20,601 nt of DNA, taken from IMG/VR virus record IMGVR_UViG_3300009181_000443, positions 1-20,601 of that record; one strand, written 5' to 3'. Within the stretch, counting starts at the first letter, position 1, and every line of letters begins with the position of its first letter. Under the pieces are notes generated by a model, which was given only the letters and a program-made list of their open reading frames with translations, was not told the DNA's origin and ran no database searches. Both the position numbers and the translations under genes were made by a program. Below are positions 6,401 to 17,379 of this stretch, piece by piece. The DNA comes from a virus.

Positions 6401-6408
6401 ACTTGTAT
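6383..6408 (+). promoter_or_regulatory. Operator-like inverted repeat ATACAAGT-N10-ACTTGTAT
   Basis: A perfect 8-bp dyad (6383-6390 and 6401-6408) exactly brackets the -10 box and runs into the start codon at 6407. Since transcription would begin inside the right arm, it cannot act as an RNA hairpin from this promoter and looks like a binding site for a dimeric regulator. Confidence 0.5.
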
Positions 6409-10645: not shown

Positions 10646-11200
10646 ATGCGTGATATTTTAGAAGTCATCAAAAACGTACAGAGCATATACACAAACAACT
10701 CCAGCTTGGCAATCTTAAAAGATTTTGAAAGAGTTATGGATGAGATGGATATGTACGTATATAAAAATTGGAAGGACGGTGAACTAGCAAGCGGACCAAA
10801 AGTTGACAGACATTGGGTAACAGCTGAGTTCATGTGGCCTTATGATAAAATGCCCGATCCAGTTGCGGCAAAAAGATTAACAGATTTAGGTTGCAAAGTA
10901 CATTACGAAAAAACAAACATTGTTGAACCTAGAAAAATACGTGATCCTGATGACCTACGTCCAGGCACAAAGAAAGGTAAACTAGATACTAAGCCAGTTT
11001 GGGTAGTTGGTATTATGATGCCTAAAAAATTAGTATTTGATATTTTTAACGGATACATGGATCGTATTAGAGAAGAAAGACAAAGTAAAGAGCCTACTAA
11101 GAAAGAAGCAGGCGCAGGTGGTGCGGCAGCACCAACAGCGGCTCCGGCAGCACCAACAGCGGCTCCGGCAGCGCCCCCAGCAGGCGGAGCACCAGTATAA
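10646..11200 (+). CDS. Unrecognised phage protein with Ala/Pro-rich C-terminal tail
   Basis: I do not recognise this 184-residue protein. The first 145 residues look folded: a helical N-terminus (MRDILEVIKNVQSIY), then FMWPYDKMPDP and GIMMPKKLVFDIFNGYMDRI. The last 35 residues are low-complexity Gly/Ala/Pro with two AAPTAAP units encoded by a perfect 21-bp repeat. Such tails are flexible linkers or protein-contact regions. AGGA lies 8 nt before the ATG and a TAAATA motif lies upstream, so late expression is likely. It is coupled to the next gene by a TAATG overlap. No signal peptide or membrane segment is present. A structural or assembly role is possible but unproven. Confidence 0.7.
   Translation: MRDILEVIKNVQSIYTNNSSLAILKDFERVMDEMDMYVYKNWKDGELASGPKVDRHWVTAEFMWPYDKMPDPVAAKRLTDLGCKVHYEKTNIVEPRKIRDPDDLRPGTKKGKLDTKPVWVVGIMMPKKLVFDIFNGYMDRIREERQSKEPTKKEAGAGGAAAPTAAPAAPTAAPAAPPAGGAPV
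11125..11166 (+). repeat. 21-bp tandem repeat encoding AAPTAAP
   Basis: The unit GGCAGCACCAACAGCGGCTCC occurs twice in perfect tandem (11125-11145 and 11146-11166), with a third copy beginning at 11167 and diverging after a few bases. It is much more GC-rich than the surrounding DNA and encodes the Ala/Pro tail of the gene at 10646. Copy number may vary. Confidence 0.9.
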
Positions 11201-11934
11201 TGCAACAGTTAAACGAAGAACTTCAAGCAGGTGATTTAAAATACCTTGTAAGTCATATATTTGACATTGACAGCTATAAGTCAAAAATTGGCGAAGATGG
11301 CGACATGGTTGTTTTAAGTTTTACAGTAGACGACAAAGCACCGGCTGATGATCTTGCTAGATTTTTAGAGATGGGTTATGAGTTTGTGTTAGACGCAGAT
11401 TCAACTAGTGGACCAACAAGCAACGGCAAACATAAAGTGTTTGTTGAGATGGAGCGTAATAGACATGTTCCAAAACAAATTATGGAACTAGTTGATGGTA
11501 TTGGTAGACTAGCTGGATTAGAAAGATTTAAATTTAGATATTATAAGAGTTTTAAAAGTTTACCAGCTGATGAAGACACGTTAGAGCAAGCTATTCCAAC
11601 AAACACTAATGAATATGACGACCGTGTTGCTAACAACGAAATGAATAACTTCTCAAATTTCTTTAATAGAAGTTTTATTGAAAACATTGATGTACTAGAA
11701 GATGACATTAGATTTGAAAAAATGTTTTCAGAGTCTATTAAAATGAAAATAAAAGACTTTGGTAGTAAAGAAGAAGTGTATAATAATATACCGGGTAAAC
11801 TTAAAATGGAGTCAAAAGATGTAAGTGAGATTCTATTCTTAACTAAGTTCATTGGTGATTACAATATTACAAAAATTGACAATACATTTGTATTTGAAAA
11901 TAACGGATACGCCGTAGCATTGGAGAGAGCATAA
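11200..11934 (+). CDS. Unrecognised 244-residue phage protein
   Basis: I do not recognise a family. The protein is acidic and soluble, with no signal peptide or membrane segment. The N-terminal 110 residues resemble an alpha/beta domain (MVVLSFTVDDKAPADDLARF, then KHKVFVEMERNRH and IMELVDGIGRLAGL). The middle (residues about 125-150) is polar and probably disordered, and the C-terminus is helical and charged. It starts in a TAATG overlap with the Ala/Pro-tailed protein and ends in a TAATG overlap with the i-spanin, so it sits in the late operon that leads to lysis genes. The partner gene upstream suggests the two act together. Confidence 0.65.
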   Translation: MQQLNEELQAGDLKYLVSHIFDIDSYKSKIGEDGDMVVLSFTVDDKAPADDLARFLEMGYEFVLDADSTSGPTSNGKHKVFVEMERNRHVPKQIMELVDGIGRLAGLERFKFRYYKSFKSLPADEDTLEQAIPTNTNEYDDRVANNEMNNFSNFFNRSFIENIDVLEDDIRFEKMFSESIKMKIKDFGSKEEVYNNIPGKLKMESKDVSEILFLTKFIGDYNITKIDNTFVFENNGYAVALERA

Positions 11935-12425
11935 TGTGGCAGTTTCAATGGGCAGTTAGTTTAATTCCTGATGCCATGTTAAATTGGATCTACTGGGTTA
12001 TTATTGCTATTGGACTCACAGGAGTACTTGCCGGGTGGGTTGGTAAATTAATTCCGTTTTACGGAAATTATGTAAAAATATTACAACCTATTGGAATTAT
12101 TTTACTTGTGTTAGGTGTGTGGCTACGTGGCGGTTATGATGTAGAAATGTCATGGCGAGCAAAGGTTGCTGATGTTGAAGCTAAAATTGCAATAGCTGAA
12201 AAACAATCACAAGAAACAAATACAGTCATAGAGCAAAAAGTTGTTGAAAAGACCAAAGTTATTAAAGGTAAAACTGAATACATTACACAGTATTTGGACC
12301 GAGAAGTTATAAAGAAAGAAGAAATCATCAAATATATTGAACAATGTCCAGTTCCTAAAGAAATTATTGATGTTCATAATCAGGCTGTGGAAATGAATAA
12401 AGCCGCGGAAGGAACTAAGAAATGA
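11934..12425 (+). CDS. Putative inner-membrane spanin (Rz-like)
   Basis: The 163-residue protein has two hydrophobic helices near the N-terminus (about residues 18-38 and 48-66), then a long charged coiled-coil segment (about 75-140: VADVEAKIAIAEKQSQ, KTKVIKGKTEYITQYLDREV) ending with CPVPKEIIDVHNQA. This matches the periplasmic part of phage i-spanins, which link to an outer-membrane lipoprotein and fuse the two membranes at lysis of Gram-negative hosts. Classical Rz has only one N-terminal membrane helix, so two is unusual. The adjacent, ATGA-overlapping gene encodes a lipoprotein that fits the o-spanin partner. C-terminal KAAEGTKK is hydrophilic. Confidence 0.75.
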   Translation: MWQFQWAVSLIPDAMLNWIYWVIIAIGLTGVLAGWVGKLIPFYGNYVKILQPIGIILLVLGVWLRGGYDVEMSWRAKVADVEAKIAIAEKQSQETNTVIEQKVVEKTKVIKGKTEYITQYLDREVIKKEEIIKYIEQCPVPKEIIDVHNQAVEMNKAAEGTKK

Positions 12426-12712
12426 GATTGCCATCAATATTAGCCGTATTTCTTATTTCATTACTACTAGTATTATTTCTTGTTGCGTGTTCCACAACAG
12501 TTCCTGTGAGACAAAAGTTTCCAGATGTGCCTAAAGCATTAGTTGAAAAATGCGAAAACTTAAAGAAAGTAGAAGGCGATAAAGTTGCTATTACAGAAAT
12601 GTTAAGAGTAATAGTGCAAAATTATGGTATGTATTATGAATGTGCCGCTAAGGTAGAAGGGTGGCAAGAATGGTACAACGATCAAAAGAAAATATACGAA
12701 AGCGTTAAATGA
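12422..12712 (+). CDS. Putative outer-membrane spanin lipoprotein (Rz1-like)
   Basis: The 96-residue product has a hydrophobic signal sequence (LAVFLISLLLVLFL) and a lipobox LVAC with the lipidated cysteine at residue 23. The mature part begins STTVPVRQKFPDVPKALVEKC, followed by a helical, aromatic end (VEGWQEWYNDQKKIYESVK). This matches Rz1-type o-spanins of T4-like marine phages, which sit in the outer membrane and bind the coiled coil of the i-spanin. The mature protein has two further cysteines that could pair. It starts in an ATGA overlap with the i-spanin and ends in an ATGA overlap with a second lipoprotein. Confidence 0.8.
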   Translation: MRLPSILAVFLISLLLVLFLVACSTTVPVRQKFPDVPKALVEKCENLKKVEGDKVAITEMLRVIVQNYGMYYECAAKVEGWQEWYNDQKKIYESVK

Positions 12713-12978
12713 AGTTTATATTAATTCTAACAGTTGTATTATTTGCAGGATGTGCAAGTACAAGTGTGGATGAATATGCTCTTTATCTAGATGCACAAAA
12801 ATCCATTTCAAGAGATAATGCTATGCTTGAAGCATCAAGAATTTTAGCATTAGTTGAAATGACTAAGAGTCATGATCCAGGAACAAGAGCGACCGGTATC
12901 ATGTTGTTGCAACAATTACAAAACAACACAAAGCCAATTAAAATTGAGCCACCATCAAAAGGGTGGTTTGGATTATAA
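12709..12978 (+). CDS. Second small lipoprotein, unknown role
   Basis: This 89-residue protein begins MKFILILTVVLFAGC, a typical lipoprotein signal with the lipidated cysteine at residue 15. The mature part is a predicted helix (DEYALYLDAQKSISRDN, ILALVEMTKSHDPGTRATGI) with a short tail ending PPSKGWFGL. It is coupled by ATGA to the o-spanin-like gene. Two lipoproteins side by side are odd for a spanin pair; this one could be a superinfection-exclusion or accessory lysis factor, or the true outer-membrane partner. I do not recognise a family. Confidence 0.65.
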   Translation: MKFILILTVVLFAGCASTSVDEYALYLDAQKSISRDNAMLEASRILALVEMTKSHDPGTRATGIMLLQQLQNNTKPIKIEPPSKGWFGL

Positions 12979-13015: not shown

Positions 13016-13579
13016 ATGGCACTAATTGATTCAGTATTAAATTTAGTAACTAAACAAGCAAAAGATCCGGATGCACCAAAGCCTCCAGTAGGATCACGTA
13101 GCGAGCGTGAAGCCAAGCTAAAAGACAAAGCAGGTATGGTTATTTCCGTATTTGCATTGTTGCTAGCAGTCAACGCATGGTACGGCGGCAAACTATCCAG
13201 CACAGTATTAAACAATACACTAGGTGCTAACAACACCTGGGCACAGTATCAGGCCAAAGCAGGTCGTGGCGTTAGTTACGAGATTGCCGCCAAGACAACA
13301 GCTGATCCAAAAATTAAAGCAGAGTTCATGGCAGAGAAAGAACGCATGGATGCTGACAAGAAAGAAATTGCTGTTAAAGCAAGAGAGATGGAAGCCCTAC
13401 GTGAAGAAGCTAAAAAATCCAGTCCTTGGATTGGTTATGCAAGTACAGCATACCAATTGGCCATTGTTGTATTATCAGCAAGTATTCTTGCAGTTAGTGT
13501 AGCCATGTTCTGGGGAAGTTTTGCTGTAGCGGCATTCGGAGTACTACTAAGTCTAAACGGCTTATATCTTTGGTTTTAA
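13016..13579 (+). CDS. DUF4337-like membrane protein
   Basis: The 187-residue protein has one membrane helix near residues 39-55 (MVISVFALLLAVNAW) and two at the C-terminus (about 145-163 and 165-186), with a soluble, helical, charged middle (residues 72-137). The order helix, NTWAQYQAKAGRGVSYEIAAK, charged coil and two closing helices matches the DUF4337 family, whose function is unknown. A strong AAGGAG lies 6 nt before the ATG. The location between spanins and putative holin points to a role in lysis timing or membrane damage, but that is inference. AGGAGCGA before its start is repeated before the next gene. Confidence 0.7.
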   Translation: MALIDSVLNLVTKQAKDPDAPKPPVGSRSEREAKLKDKAGMVISVFALLLAVNAWYGGKLSSTVLNNTLGANNTWAQYQAKAGRGVSYEIAAKTTADPKIKAEFMAEKERMDADKKEIAVKAREMEALREEAKKSSPWIGYASTAYQLAIVVLSASILAVSVAMFWGSFAVAAFGVLLSLNGLYLWF

Positions 13580-13598: not shown

Positions 13599-14168
13599 AT
13601 GAGCGAAGAAGTTAAAAGCGGTAGCGAACAAAAGAAAGAAGATTGGATGAACAGTAAATGGCGTCCAATGATGGGGTGGATGTACATGGTTGTCTGTATG
13701 ATGGACATGGTTATATTTCCAATCCTATGGAGTCTACTACAGACATTTACCCATACACAAATTACACAATGGAATCCTCTAACACTACAAGGTGCTGGAT
13801 TGTTCCACATTGCTATGGGTGCTGTACTAGGTATTGCGGCATTTGGTCGTACACAAGAAAAATTAGGAGGAGCAAATAATGGCGGAGCACAAACACCAGC
13901 AACAGGATTTGCGAGCGGGACTCCAGCATTTGGCACTGCGCCGGCAGGAGGAGCAGTATCAACAGGCTTTGGTAATAGTTCAGGGTTTGGAGCGACAACG
14001 CCTGTCGCAAGTGTACCAGCAGGCAGTTTCGGAGGCGGCTTTGGAAGCGCACCTGTAACGCCAGCAGTAAGTGCATCATCAACTCCAACTAGCACATTTG
14101 CATTGTCAGACACAGTAGCAGAACCATCAGGAACATCGATGGGCATTAAGCGTCCAACAATCGGTTGA
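13599..14168 (+). CDS. Putative holin with FG-rich low-complexity C-terminal tail
   Basis: The first 90 residues resemble marine phage holins of the 3TM-superfamily type: a charged N-terminus, the motif SKWRPMMGWMYM (19-30) leading into a long membrane helix (to about 48), then PLTLQGAGLFHIAMGAVLGI (60-79) as a second helix, and GRTQEKLGG. Holins open the inner membrane at a set time to start lysis. Unusually, about 100 residues follow that are almost only Gly, Ala, Ser, Thr, Pro and Phe with GFG/FGG-type repeats, probably a disordered cytoplasmic tail. AGGAG lies 6 nt before the ATG. It follows the DUF4337-like gene by 19 nt. No endolysin is seen beside it. Confidence 0.7.
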   Translation: MSEEVKSGSEQKKEDWMNSKWRPMMGWMYMVVCMMDMVIFPILWSLLQTFTHTQITQWNPLTLQGAGLFHIAMGAVLGIAAFGRTQEKLGGANNGGAQTPATGFASGTPAFGTAPAGGAVSTGFGNSSGFGATTPVASVPAGSFGGGFGSAPVTPAVSASSTPTSTFALSDTVAEPSGTSMGIKRPTIG

Positions 14169-14215: not shown

Positions 14216-15052
14216 ATGACCTACTACAATACACTTGGCGTTTCACAAGACGCTAGTCAAAACGATATTAAAAAAGCATATCGTAGTTTGGCTATGAAAC
14301 ATCACCCAGATCGCGGTGGTGATGCAGATACATTCAAAAATATTTCAGTAGCATACGACACGCTCAGCGATGAGGACAAACGTGCTCAATATGACCAACA
14401 GTTAATGGGCGGTCCACAAATCAATATGCATAACTTTGGTGATATAAACGAAATGTTTGGAAACATGTTTCGTTTTGGTCCAGGGTTTGCTGGGTTCCAA
14501 CAACAAGGTCACATTCAAAAAAATAGAGATTTAAATCTACGCTGTCAAATTACACTACGCGATAGCTTTGTTGGCAAAGAATTGGAAGCAACGTACACAT
14601 TACCGTCTGGTAAAAGACAAACTGTTGGTATAACAATTCCTATAGGCATTGAAAACGGACAAACTATACGCTACAATGGATTGGGCGATGATACATATCC
14701 TCAACTACAACGAGGACATTTAAATGTCACAGTACTGGTAGAACCAGACATTAACTATCATAAACGCGGTGATGACGTTTGTACTGTTGTTAACATTGAT
14801 GCATTTGAAGCAATGTTAGGCTGTACCAAAAAAGTTAAGACAATTGATGACAAAACTTTAAAAATAAACATACGCCCTGGAATTGAACACGGCGGCGAGT
14901 ATCAAGCGGCGGGCATGGGGTTTCAAAATGCACAGCGTAGAACTACAGGCAATTTCATTATTATTGTAAACATAACAATACCAGCAATAACCAATGATGA
15001 AATTAAAACAAAATTAGAAAATATTAGAGATGAATTTAACGCAAGCTCTTGA
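14216..15052 (+). CDS. dnaJ: DnaJ-like (class B, CbpA-type) co-chaperone
   Basis: The 278-residue protein begins with a J domain (residues 1-63) whose HPD motif at 30-32 would stimulate ATP hydrolysis by host DnaK. A short Gly/Phe-rich linker (about 70-98) follows, then two C-terminal substrate-binding beta domains from RDLNLRCQITLRDSFVG to the end. The zinc-finger region of classical DnaJ (CxxCxGxG repeats) is absent, so it is of CbpA/class B type. It probably redirects host DnaK to phage proteins or DNA-protein complexes. No Shine-Dalgarno is present, and the consensus promoter predicts a leaderless mRNA. The start is fixed by the conserved MxYYxxLGVxxDAS. Its stop overlaps the -35 of the clpA promoter. 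Confidence 0.92.
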   Translation: MTYYNTLGVSQDASQNDIKKAYRSLAMKHHPDRGGDADTFKNISVAYDTLSDEDKRAQYDQQLMGGPQINMHNFGDINEMFGNMFRFGPGFAGFQQQGHIQKNRDLNLRCQITLRDSFVGKELEATYTLPSGKRQTVGITIPIGIENGQTIRYNGLGDDTYPQLQRGHLNVTVLVEPDINYHKRGDDVCTVVNIDAFEAMLGCTKKVKTIDDKTLKINIRPGIEHGGEYQAAGMGFQNAQRRTTGNFIIIVNITIPAITNDEIKTKLENIRDEFNASS

Positions 15053-15111: not shown

Positions 15112-17379
15112 ATGGTAGAACCAAGTGAAAATTTAAAATTAGTTTTTGACAAGGCCCTTGATGTAGCCAAAAAGCTACAGCACGAGTACTTGACTATCGA
15201 GCATTTGCTATTTGCCATGCTGTGCGAAGAAAGTTTCTTCAATTGTGTGCAGGGCTATGGGGCAGATCCGGACTACATTAAAAAGAATTTAGAACATTAT
15301 CTAAAAACAAAATTAACAGATATTGTTGTACAAGAAACTATGAAACCAAAAAAGACACAGACTGTGGAGCGTGTACTTAATCGTGCATTTACACAGGTCT
15401 TGTTTAATGGTCGTCAACAAATTGAACCTACAGATGTTTTCCTTGCTATTATGAGTGAAAAGCGTAGTTGGGCCAGTTATTATATTCAACAAGCAGAAAT
15501 TGATAAAGACAAATTTTCTGATTATCTCAGCAACGAAATGGAAAGTGGTGAAGAAGAAGTGCCTGATACTCAAAGCGAACGTGCATTAAAAGCATTTACT
15601 ACCAACTTAAATGAAGCAGTAAAGAAGAACAAAATAGATCCAGTGATTGGTCGTATTAGTGAACTTGAAAATATTGCCCTTGCAATGGGACGTAGAAACA
15701 AGAACAACGTAATGCTAGTTGGTGAGCCAGGTGTTGGTAAAACTGCTATTGCAGAAGGACTTGCTTTTAACATTGTTAAAGGTGCAGTTCCAGACTTCCT
15801 AAAAGATTACACAGTTTACAATTTAGACATTAGCAGTATGCTTGCTGGCAGTAAGTATCGTGGAGACTTTGAAGAAAGATTCAAAGCAGTATTAAAAGGT
15901 CTTGAAAAGAAAGGTAAAACTATTCTCTTTATTGACGAAGCACACATGATTAGTGGTGCCGGTAGTGCAGGCAATAGTGCTAACGACCTTGCTAACATGA
16001 TGAAGCCAGCACTGAGCAAAGGCAATATTAAAGTTGTTGCAAGTACTACATGGGAAGAATACCGCAAGTACTTTGAAAAAGATCGTGCATTGATGCGTAG
16101 GTTCCAACGTATTACAGTTGATGAGCCAAGTCCAGAAGTTGCACTACAAATTCTCAAAGGTCTTAAAAAGTATTACGAAACACATCACAAAGTTAAGATT
16201 TTAGATGAAGCATTGAATGTTGCAGTCAAGTTAAGTGTAAAATATCAAAGTGATAAAAAATTACCTGATAAGGCCATAGACCTAATTGATTGTGCATGTT
16301 CACGTTTTAACATTAAACTTTCGGATGAACGCACTGTTGGTGAAAATGAGATTCAATATGAACTTGCACAAATGGTACAAATGCCCGCTGAAGCTATTGC
16401 AGAAACTGAAAGTGGCAATCTTGCTAACTTAGAAGAACAATTACAAACTGAAGTGTATGGTCAAAATTCTGCCATTACAGAACTTGTGGATAAAATACTG
16501 GTTGCTAGAGCTGGACTTAAACCTGAAAACAAACCCATTGGTAGTTTTGTATTCATGGGCCCAACTGGCTGTGGTAAGACTGAAACTGCTAAAGCATTGA
16601 GCAAACATCTTGGGGTTAAGCTGTTACGTTTTGATATGAGTGAATATCAAGAAAAACATAGCCTAAGTAAACTTATTGGTAGTCCTCCGGGATATGTTGG
16701 CTTTGAAGAAAATGCTGGCTTATTAATTACACAAATTCAAGAGAATCCAAATTGTGTATTACTGTTTGATGAAGTTGAAAAATCACATCCAGATGTTAGC
16801 ACAATTTTGTTACAGTTAATGGATAACGGATTTGTTACTGGATCAAATGGTAAAAAAGCAGATTGCAGAAACATTGTTCTTATTCTAACTACCAATGCTG
16901 GCGCACAGGCCGCGGAAAAGAATAGAATTGGATTTGGTGATCAGGAACAAGAGTATGAAGATAAAGAACTTAAGAAATTCTTTGCTCCAGAGTTCCGTAA
17001 TCGTTTGGATGCCGTTGTGACATTTAAGAAACTTGGCAAAGAAACAATGGTAAAAATTGTCAACAAGTTTATTTCTGAACTAAGTATTCAAGTTAAAGAC
17101 AAAGGTATTAAAATTAAGATTAGTAGCGAGGCAATTAACTTGCTTGTCAAGAAGGGCTTTGATAGCAAAATGGGCGCAAGACCATTGCAACGTACTATTG
17201 ATCAATTGATTAAGAGACCGCTAAGTCGTATGATGCTGTTTGGAGATTTGAAAGACGGCGGATTGCTAATGATTGGCGTTGAAAACGATGCAATTACTTT
17301 AACTAAAAAAGTAAAACCTCAAAAGGTACAAGTTGTAGAACATGAAACTGAACTCGAAGATTCAACTCAAGGAAACTAA
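15112..17379 (+). CDS. clpA: ClpA-like AAA+ unfoldase
   Basis: At 755 residues it is close to E. coli ClpA (758). A Clp N-domain (about 1-145, with LTIEHLLFAML) is followed by AAA module 1: Walker A GEPGVGKT (204-211) and Walker B with D275/E276. Module 2 has Walker A GPTGCGKT (483-490), Walker B D553/E554 and the arginine-finger motif FRNRLD (628-633). There is no ClpB middle coil domain. The tripeptide IGF at 606-608 sits where ClpA has its IGL loop that docks on ClpP. ClpA with host ClpP degrades proteins; alone it remodels complexes. All key residues look intact, so it should be active. No clpP or clpS is nearby. It is behind its own promoter directly after dnaJ. Confidence 0.9.
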   Translation: MVEPSENLKLVFDKALDVAKKLQHEYLTIEHLLFAMLCEESFFNCVQGYGADPDYIKKNLEHYLKTKLTDIVVQETMKPKKTQTVERVLNRAFTQVLFNGRQQIEPTDVFLAIMSEKRSWASYYIQQAEIDKDKFSDYLSNEMESGEEEVPDTQSERALKAFTTNLNEAVKKNKIDPVIGRISELENIALAMGRRNKNNVMLVGEPGVGKTAIAEGLAFNIVKGAVPDFLKDYTVYNLDISSMLAGSKYRGDFEERFKAVLKGLEKKGKTILFIDEAHMISGAGSAGNSANDLANMMKPALSKGNIKVVASTTWEEYRKYFEKDRALMRRFQRITVDEPSPEVALQILKGLKKYYETHHKVKILDEALNVAVKLSVKYQSDKKLPDKAIDLIDCACSRFNIKLSDERTVGENEIQYELAQMVQMPAEAIAETESGNLANLEEQLQTEVYGQNSAITELVDKILVARAGLKPENKPIGSFVFMGPTGCGKTETAKALSKHLGVKLLRFDMSEYQEKHSLSKLIGSPPGYVGFEENAGLLITQIQENPNCVLLFDEVEKSHPDVSTILLQLMDNGFVTGSNGKKADCRNIVLILTTNAGAQAAEKNRIGFGDQEQEYEDKELKKFFAPEFRNRLDAVVTFKKLGKETMVKIVNKFISELSIQVKDKGIKIKISSEAINLLVKKGFDSKMGARPLQRTIDQLIKRPLSRMMLFGDLKDGGLLMIGVENDAITLTKKVKPQKVQVVEHETELEDSTQGN

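Follow-up and report, generated by a model that had tools for sequence, protein, structure and literature searches.

In the review PMC9636201 holins are described as accumulating and coalescing into a raft, after which the hole opens, and the biophysical properties of holins that drive formation of this death raft are put as an open question. Two membrane helices with both ends inside mark the class II holins, S21 of phage phi21 among them (PMC9636201). TeaA of Vibrio phage ICP1, a holin of the Pfam family PF11351 (GTA_holin_3TM), has been tested for activity, with lowering of the membrane potential and triggering by dinitrophenol; its assignment to PF11351 was published as a remote homology (PMC7182436), and the Pfam PF11351 model gave no match to TeaA in our scan. 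The C-terminal ~25 residues of TeaA are rich in charged ones. In brushes of FG nucleoporins, Phe governs cohesion, and changing Phe to Ser raises the brush height (PMC11407397). Here we describe a phage protein that resembles S21 in its predicted two-helix hairpin and the PF11351 and phrog_3427 holins in family match, helical hairpin and lysis-gene neighbours. It differs from S21 in a long, predicted disordered arm on one end, and from the PF11351 and phrog_3427 holins, TeaA included, in having two hydrophobic helices and a long FG-rich arm in place of a short tail.

The protein (189 aa) is encoded on the plus strand of a 20,601-base stretch of an IMG/VR virus record, which was analysed whole and is called the window below. 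Its gene follows two spanin-like genes, a small lipoprotein gene and a DUF4337 gene, and precedes genes for DnaJ and a Clp-type ATPase:

11934–12425, plus strand: Rz-like (i-spanin-like) membrane protein, weak matches (phrog_4952, 1.4e-4; phrog_312 Rz-like, 0.033)
12422–12712, plus strand: Rz1-like lipoprotein (phrog_456, 5.7e-8; Pfam LysC 26.5 bits, just below the cut-off of 27)
12709–12978, plus strand: small lipoprotein-like gene, matched in 8 of 145 C-type loci (see below)
13016–13579, plus strand: DUF4337 membrane protein (5.7e-25), encoded between the spanin-like pair and the holin
13599–14168, plus strand: holin-like gene, 189 aa, with a C-terminal FG-rich tail (PF11351, phrog_3427, 80 kept relatives)
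14216–15052, plus strand: DnaJ-like co-chaperone, the usual downstream neighbour
15112–17379, plus strand: ClpA/ClpB-like AAA+ ATPase, also a usual downstream neighbour

The first half of the protein matched PF11351 with 28.2 bits (curated cut-off 24.8) over profile positions 59–122 of 123, the first part of the profile being unmatched, and matched phrog_3427 (holin) with E 1.6e-8. The PF11351 cut-off was also passed by all eight FG-type relatives scanned and by an armless relative, L111. Foldseek against BFVD returned two significant matches only, both named 'Holin of 3TMs'. With the lysis cassette found in the window's clade, these matches bear out the label of putative holin given by the initial annotation, and from them we infer holin activity. 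The three helices of the family name were not found, as AlphaFold2 gave two helices and hydropathy two peaks; going by these models, the window protein is a two-helix variant of the PF11351-type holin, set apart from the 3TM holins. Its parts are as follows:

13623–13751, plus strand: first long helix, residues 9–51 (AlphaFold2), hydrophobic segment about 23–51 (hydropathy), holds D36
13782–13874, plus strand: second long helix, residues 62–92 (AlphaFold2), hydrophobic segment about 61–85 (hydropathy), holds H70
13848–13886, plus strand: juxtamembrane RTQEKLGGANNGG, basic, conserved in the window's clade, on the putative cytosolic side
13881–14123, plus strand: FG-rich linker, predicted disordered (motif counts, AlphaFold2)
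14124–14165, plus strand: C-terminal tip, last 14 aa, the window being in a minor tip class (MGIKRPTIG)

AlphaFold2 with a 111-row alignment predicted these two helices to pack as a hairpin. Basic residues lie at both of its flanks, and from the charges alone we infer an N-in/C-in topology, which would probably make the protein class II-like. W21, Y29, C33, D36, P41, H70 and G74 are invariant in the 111-row alignment. D36 (13704–13706) and H70 (13806–13808) place an acidic residue and a His inside predicted membrane helices; as a buried polar pair, they could matter for triggering. The core motif W-x-P-L-T-L-x-x-x-G-x-F-H-x-A-x-G (10-row alignment) is common to PA5oct gp178, Atu_ph07 gp285 and the homologue in Sinorhizobium phage Phosso. 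These differ from the window protein beyond the core: the PA5oct homologue has 108 aa and no arm, the tail of Atu_ph07 gp285 is short and charged, and that of the Phosso protein is Tyr/Gln/Pro-rich.

The window's tail extends from around residue 95 (13881) up to residue 189 (14165), so that the description of an FG-rich tail at 13870–14160 was correct within a few codons. G, A, S, T, P and F make up 83% of its 95 aa. The tail contains seven Phe, five FG, three GFG and four charged residues. The order of its residues is not that of a random mixture: FG occurs five times against 1.38 expected (reached by 4 of 2000 shuffles of the tail's own residues) and GFG three times against 0.28 (5 of 2000), the excess of GF alone being weaker (4 against 1.44; 68 of 2000). 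The tail-coding stretch contains no tandem repeat arrays at the DNA level, and the GFG codons at 13965, 13983 and 14037 read GGCTTTGG, GGGTTTGG and GGCTTTGG, and thus differ. After residue 92 AlphaFold2 (111 sequences) predicted no secondary structure, with block-mean pLDDT of 46–57. The charge-hydropathy index of the tail (+0.305), however, does not call it disordered, so the disorder call, which the initial annotation had made, rests on AlphaFold2 and composition. As a separate observation, the virion structural protein phrog_12928 (10646–11200) has at its end a low-complexity, Ala/Pro/Gly-rich tail that lacks Phe.

The same annotation had likened the tail to nucleoporin FG regions. This holds for composition and fails for homology and motif type. 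FG nucleoporins and the phage arms share an FG about every 20–25 residues (median FG density 4.8 per 100 aa in C-tails and 4.1 in N-terminal extensions of relatives), low charge and predicted disorder. However, FG-nucleoporin Pfam models did not match the window protein at E up to 1; among 10 proteins scanned the best match was PF15967 at E 1.4, with 7.8 bits against a cut-off of 32.3. Searched against PDB sequences, the tail of the window protein had no match with E of 10 or below. GLFG or FxFG accounted for none of the 587 FG in 142 unique extensions (382 in 94 C-tails and 205 in 48 N-extensions), where the residue before FG is mostly Gly, Ser, Ala or Thr. We therefore reject homology to nucleoporins and take the resemblance as compositional. 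The window's arm also differs from FG nucleoporins in being short, joined to a membrane hairpin and encoded by a phage.

Relatives of the window holin are numerous in IMG/VR. Scanning with the window protein found them in at least 586 of 599 stretches (80 kept), with an alignment of distant cores in at least 543 of 600 (80 kept), with L111 in 18 of 21 and with another relative, L145, in at least 597 of 599 (80 kept); among cellular genome assemblies, 4 of 34 were positive. We collected 267 ORFs from 267 sources (266 complete), classified 262 and dropped 5 without a match to our regular expressions. Among 239 superclade loci, 120 had a C-terminal FG arm, 20 another C-terminal extension, 60 an N-terminal FG arm, 20 another N-terminal extension, 19 neither and none both (C-terminal 140, N-terminal 80 in sum). 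The 'neither' class shrinks to 16 when two loci cut by a contig end (L070, L234) and a second sampling of the L111 contig (L172) are removed; the clearest armless loci are L111, L174 and L178–L188. Counted as 201 unique combinations, the classes were C-FG 94, N-FG 48, other C 15, other N 15, neither 11 and distant cores 18. Since the loci are related and some contigs were taken more than once, these counts describe a pattern, not a probability, and since sampling was by similarity to the queries, the proportions are not population frequencies. Trees on the short core (95 and 81 columns kept), with many forks unresolved, were used for the clustering of arm types only.

Most close relatives fetched share the FG-rich, predicted disordered tail; others have Pro/Ala-rich linkers or no extension at all. 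In L022/L028, with a core 97% identical to the window's, and likewise in L056, L132 and L141/L143, the linker is Pro/Ala/Thr-rich with few Phe and the tip is kept. FG cannot be indispensable, because Pro/Ala-rich linkers replace it in such near relatives. Tails on distant cores can be Tyr-rich (7 Tyr in 60 residues in Phosso, 7 in 66 in L087 and 8 in 56 in L089), and by eye four distant cores with differing tails (L082, L130, L165, L092) have a short DNP[DN] in common close to the C-terminus.

A new finding is that a sister clade carries its FG-rich segment N-terminally. The initial annotation had treated the segment as a C-terminal tail; this is so in the window, but the segment is not bound to the C-terminus. 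Holins of the clade near L145 have no C-tail, and carry an N-terminal extension in frame with the core, in the FG type with a median of 106 aa beyond the juxtamembrane 20. L145 itself, a candidate armless relative, was rejected as such when its start was found further upstream, giving a 70-aa N-terminal extension. Starts of N-type proteins were set by a rule preferring an upstream ATG with a Shine-Dalgarno-like match, a choice supported by the conserved N-terminal start. The extension is coding, as second codon positions differ less (tip 0.13, linker 0.20, core 0.05) than fourfold sites (0.35–0.42) in 21 pairs. AlphaFold2 predicted residues 42–119 of one such protein (L213) to be structureless. 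GFG occurs 71 times in 34 non-redundant N-linkers against 7.1 ± 2.8 in shuffles, and 193 times against 17.0 ± 3.8 in 86 non-redundant C-tails of the window's clade, where shared ancestry inflates the excess; at either end it is about tenfold above shuffles. A similar arm on opposite ends of the protein in related phages suggests that the arm has a job, perhaps in the timing of lysis; the condensation and gating of oligomerisation named by the initial annotation are candidate roles.

A folded tail, or a tail encoded as a separate gene, in relatives had been named as speaking against the initial description. Neither was seen in the two AlphaFold2 models, in the DNA past two relatives without a C-tail or in flanking sequence from the first 166 sources. 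In these flanks no other ORF fitted the tip and no second FG-rich protein was found, the 13 weak FG-like windows all being on minus-strand frames. Among 1526 stop-to-stop frames of at least 60 aa on a 356-kb relative contig, an FG cluster (at least 4 per 60 aa) occurred in the holin only. An N-type relative, L207, sits on a viral contig of 524,565 bases, so the holin family reaches very large phages.

We then compared gene neighbourhoods, taking as C-type 145 loci (139 of the superclade and 6 with distant cores). A GH19-type endolysin of about 210 aa (phrog_181, E 8.5e-76 to 3.4e-81 in three tested), with no export signal to the eye, lies in the flanks of 85 of the 145, at a median of 1.9 kb upstream of the holin. 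It was near the holin in 5/80 N-type, 8/19 'neither' and 2/17 distant loci, and it was present on 10 of the 12 N-type contigs searched. In L111 the endolysin stop codon (7936) is just ahead of the holin start (7938). The window, a fragment, had no match to this endolysin. Rz1-like and Rz-like genes were matched in 106 and 101 of the 145 C-type loci, and in 6 and 3 of the 80 N-type loci, so spanin-like genes are mostly away from the N-type holin. DUF4337 was matched in 79/145 C-type and 2/80 N-type loci; it is possible that this protein is an antiholin or accessory. DnaJ was found within 1.3 kb of the holin in 109/145 C-type, 61/80 N-type, 6/19 'neither' and 0/17 distant loci. DnaJ and the Clp-type ATPase follow the holin in most C- and N-type loci, while spanin and endolysin genes vary.

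Other endolysin families were also searched for with Pfam models. PF00959 was rejected as the superclade endolysin, since among 16 contigs searched it was on none of the 13 from the superclade and on all 3 with distant cores. PF01510, PF08291, PF05838 (its control matched nowhere) and PF13539 were matched in none of the 13 superclade contigs. PF00182 matched 7 of the 13, 6 above the cut-off, with its control also matching nowhere.

To see what is preserved within the arm, we measured residue retention in linkers, using in both clades pairs picked for arm similarity. Losses of Phe were rarer than those of Ser, Thr or Ala. In 32 pairs of the C clade, aligned by identity only, retention was F 0.93, G 0.85, P 0.81, A 0.75, S 0.73 and T 0.73, where a neutral simulation gave F 0.86, S 0.82, T 0.83 and A 0.84. 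The Phe excess was smaller in the 13 gap-free C pairs (F 0.85, G 0.80, P 0.77, A 0.76, T 0.75, S 0.69), where V had 0.83 and Q, at 0.87, stood above F. In 21 pairs of the N clade, whose values stand without a neutral simulation, F had 0.83, L 0.82, G 0.81, Q 0.80, S 0.71, T 0.62, P 0.60 and A 0.44. C-linkers had fewer differences at fourfold sites (0.163) than cores had (0.324), from which nothing is concluded because the pairs were chosen by tail similarity.

The free C-tip, as far as the alignments tell, is more conserved than the FG linker, a feature that the initial annotation had not noted. Over 85 tails the last 13 residues carry about 1.9 bits per column, compared with about 0.3 for positions -30 to -39, a comparison that favours the tip because the alignment is anchored at the end and the variable-length linker is unaligned there; a rough dN/dS in the 32 C pairs points the same way (core 0.08, tip 0.17, linker 0.56). 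Most relatives' C-tips end in P-x-[IL], with Pro at -3 in 69 of 85 and Leu or Ile at -1 in 64 of 85, and by pattern they fall into five classes, leaving 6 of 85 unclassed. N-tips are conserved too, with a short predicted helix at residues 19–26 (pLDDT about 55–60). Although the N-tip (LPKKAGFEQP...) and the C-tip (GKKIVPDFDQPAI) are alike by eye, homology between them was rejected (hhalign Prob 0.09, E 0.57; 11 of 100 column shuffles equalled the score).

The reading that we put first, tentatively and at somewhat under an even chance, is that the FG arm tunes clustering of the holin and hence the timing of lysis. A two-helix holin of the PF11351 kind, in a lineage including very large phages, would build up in the inner membrane and release the endolysin at lysis time. 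Each hairpin would bear one long disordered arm, probably cytosolic, C-terminal in the window's clade and N-terminal in its sister, in which weak Phe stickers are set in a Gly/Ser/Ala/Thr/Pro spacer that ends in a conserved free tip. Neighbouring arms would touch weakly and multivalently, and their tuned gathering into a hole-opening raft would be the lysis clock. The arm would be a position-independent FG brush, probably on the cytosolic side. We prefer the brush because an arm at either end, kept stickers and drifting spacers fit it better than they fit a folded domain or a plain spacer.

It is possible, if less probable, that the arm is a flexible tether, in which FG belongs to a disordered spacer and the conserved free tip docks a cytosolic partner, such as an antiholin, a chaperone or a Clp ATPase. 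The working part would be the tip, mostly GKxxxPxx[QD]Px[IL] at the C-terminus and LPKK..DDDHH..LA.DP at the N-terminus; in favour are the higher conservation of tip over linker in both bits and dN/dS, the short predicted helix of the conserved N-tips, the retention of the tip in the relatives that lost FG, and the DnaJ and Clp genes after the holin in both clades. However, L111, without arm or tip, still has DnaJ downstream, a pure spacer would not need to keep Phe over Ser, Thr and Ala, and a single docking partner is doubtful because N- and C-tips are not detectably related and C-tips form five classes. The brush and a docking tip can also both be true together. A stronger form of the brush, which we hold unlikely, would make the lysis clock a two-dimensional condensation switch, where an inner-face FG layer at either holin end nucleates rafts at a sharp concentration threshold and aromatic-sticker arms arose repeatedly (C-FG, N-FG and Tyr-rich on distant cores). 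On this reading, the endolysin might even leave through a hole lined by the FG layer.

Fast divergence of the linkers could instead mean that the extension is passive, drifting under weak selection, or protective, a poor substrate for AAA+ proteases that lets the holin accumulate. Gly/Ala-rich stretches can stall such proteases; the linkers of the 32 C pairs contain 166 gap positions, whereas their cores contain 41 and their tips 2; in 116 of 5886 pairs the linkers are largely different although the cores have at least 97% identity; and some relatives miss the extension. Such an extension would not be expected to show ordered FG and GFG, to keep Phe preferentially, to have a conserved tip or to recur as an FG segment at the opposite terminus, and we consider it improbable. 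Quite improbable, too, is a virion or assembly-site membrane protein that inherited the holin label from its family name. The PA5oct gp178 homologue is annotated as a structural protein with ESI-MS/MS and lies among structural and tail-type genes, phrog_12928 and phrog_13138 are structural genes upstream in the window, and 61 of 80 N-type loci have a match to phrog_13138 some 0.5 kb upstream; but carry-over of membrane proteins into virion preparations also yields MS peptides, and the PF11351 and phrog_3427 matches, the activity of TeaA, the endolysin and spanin-like genes beside C-clade holins and the endolysin abutting the holin in L111 all speak for lysis.

Among the matches listed from the open-licence literature, with subscription journals largely outside it, we found no FG-rich or disordered holin arm, which is weak evidence of absence. 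More than 200 natural holins on related hairpins have an FG arm at the C- or N-terminus, a Pro/Ala-rich linker, or none, and because such variants exist, the question of what drives raft formation can be tested by comparing them. If the FG arm does set timing, phages would offer an example of sticker-and-spacer control within a membrane, at either end of one kind of protein.

Elsewhere in the window, a 169-aa ORF at 6407–6916 matches only part of DNA polymerase III alpha (Pfam, 1.2e-12; also phrog_11127, a family of 171 positions), looking as if the polymerase were split.
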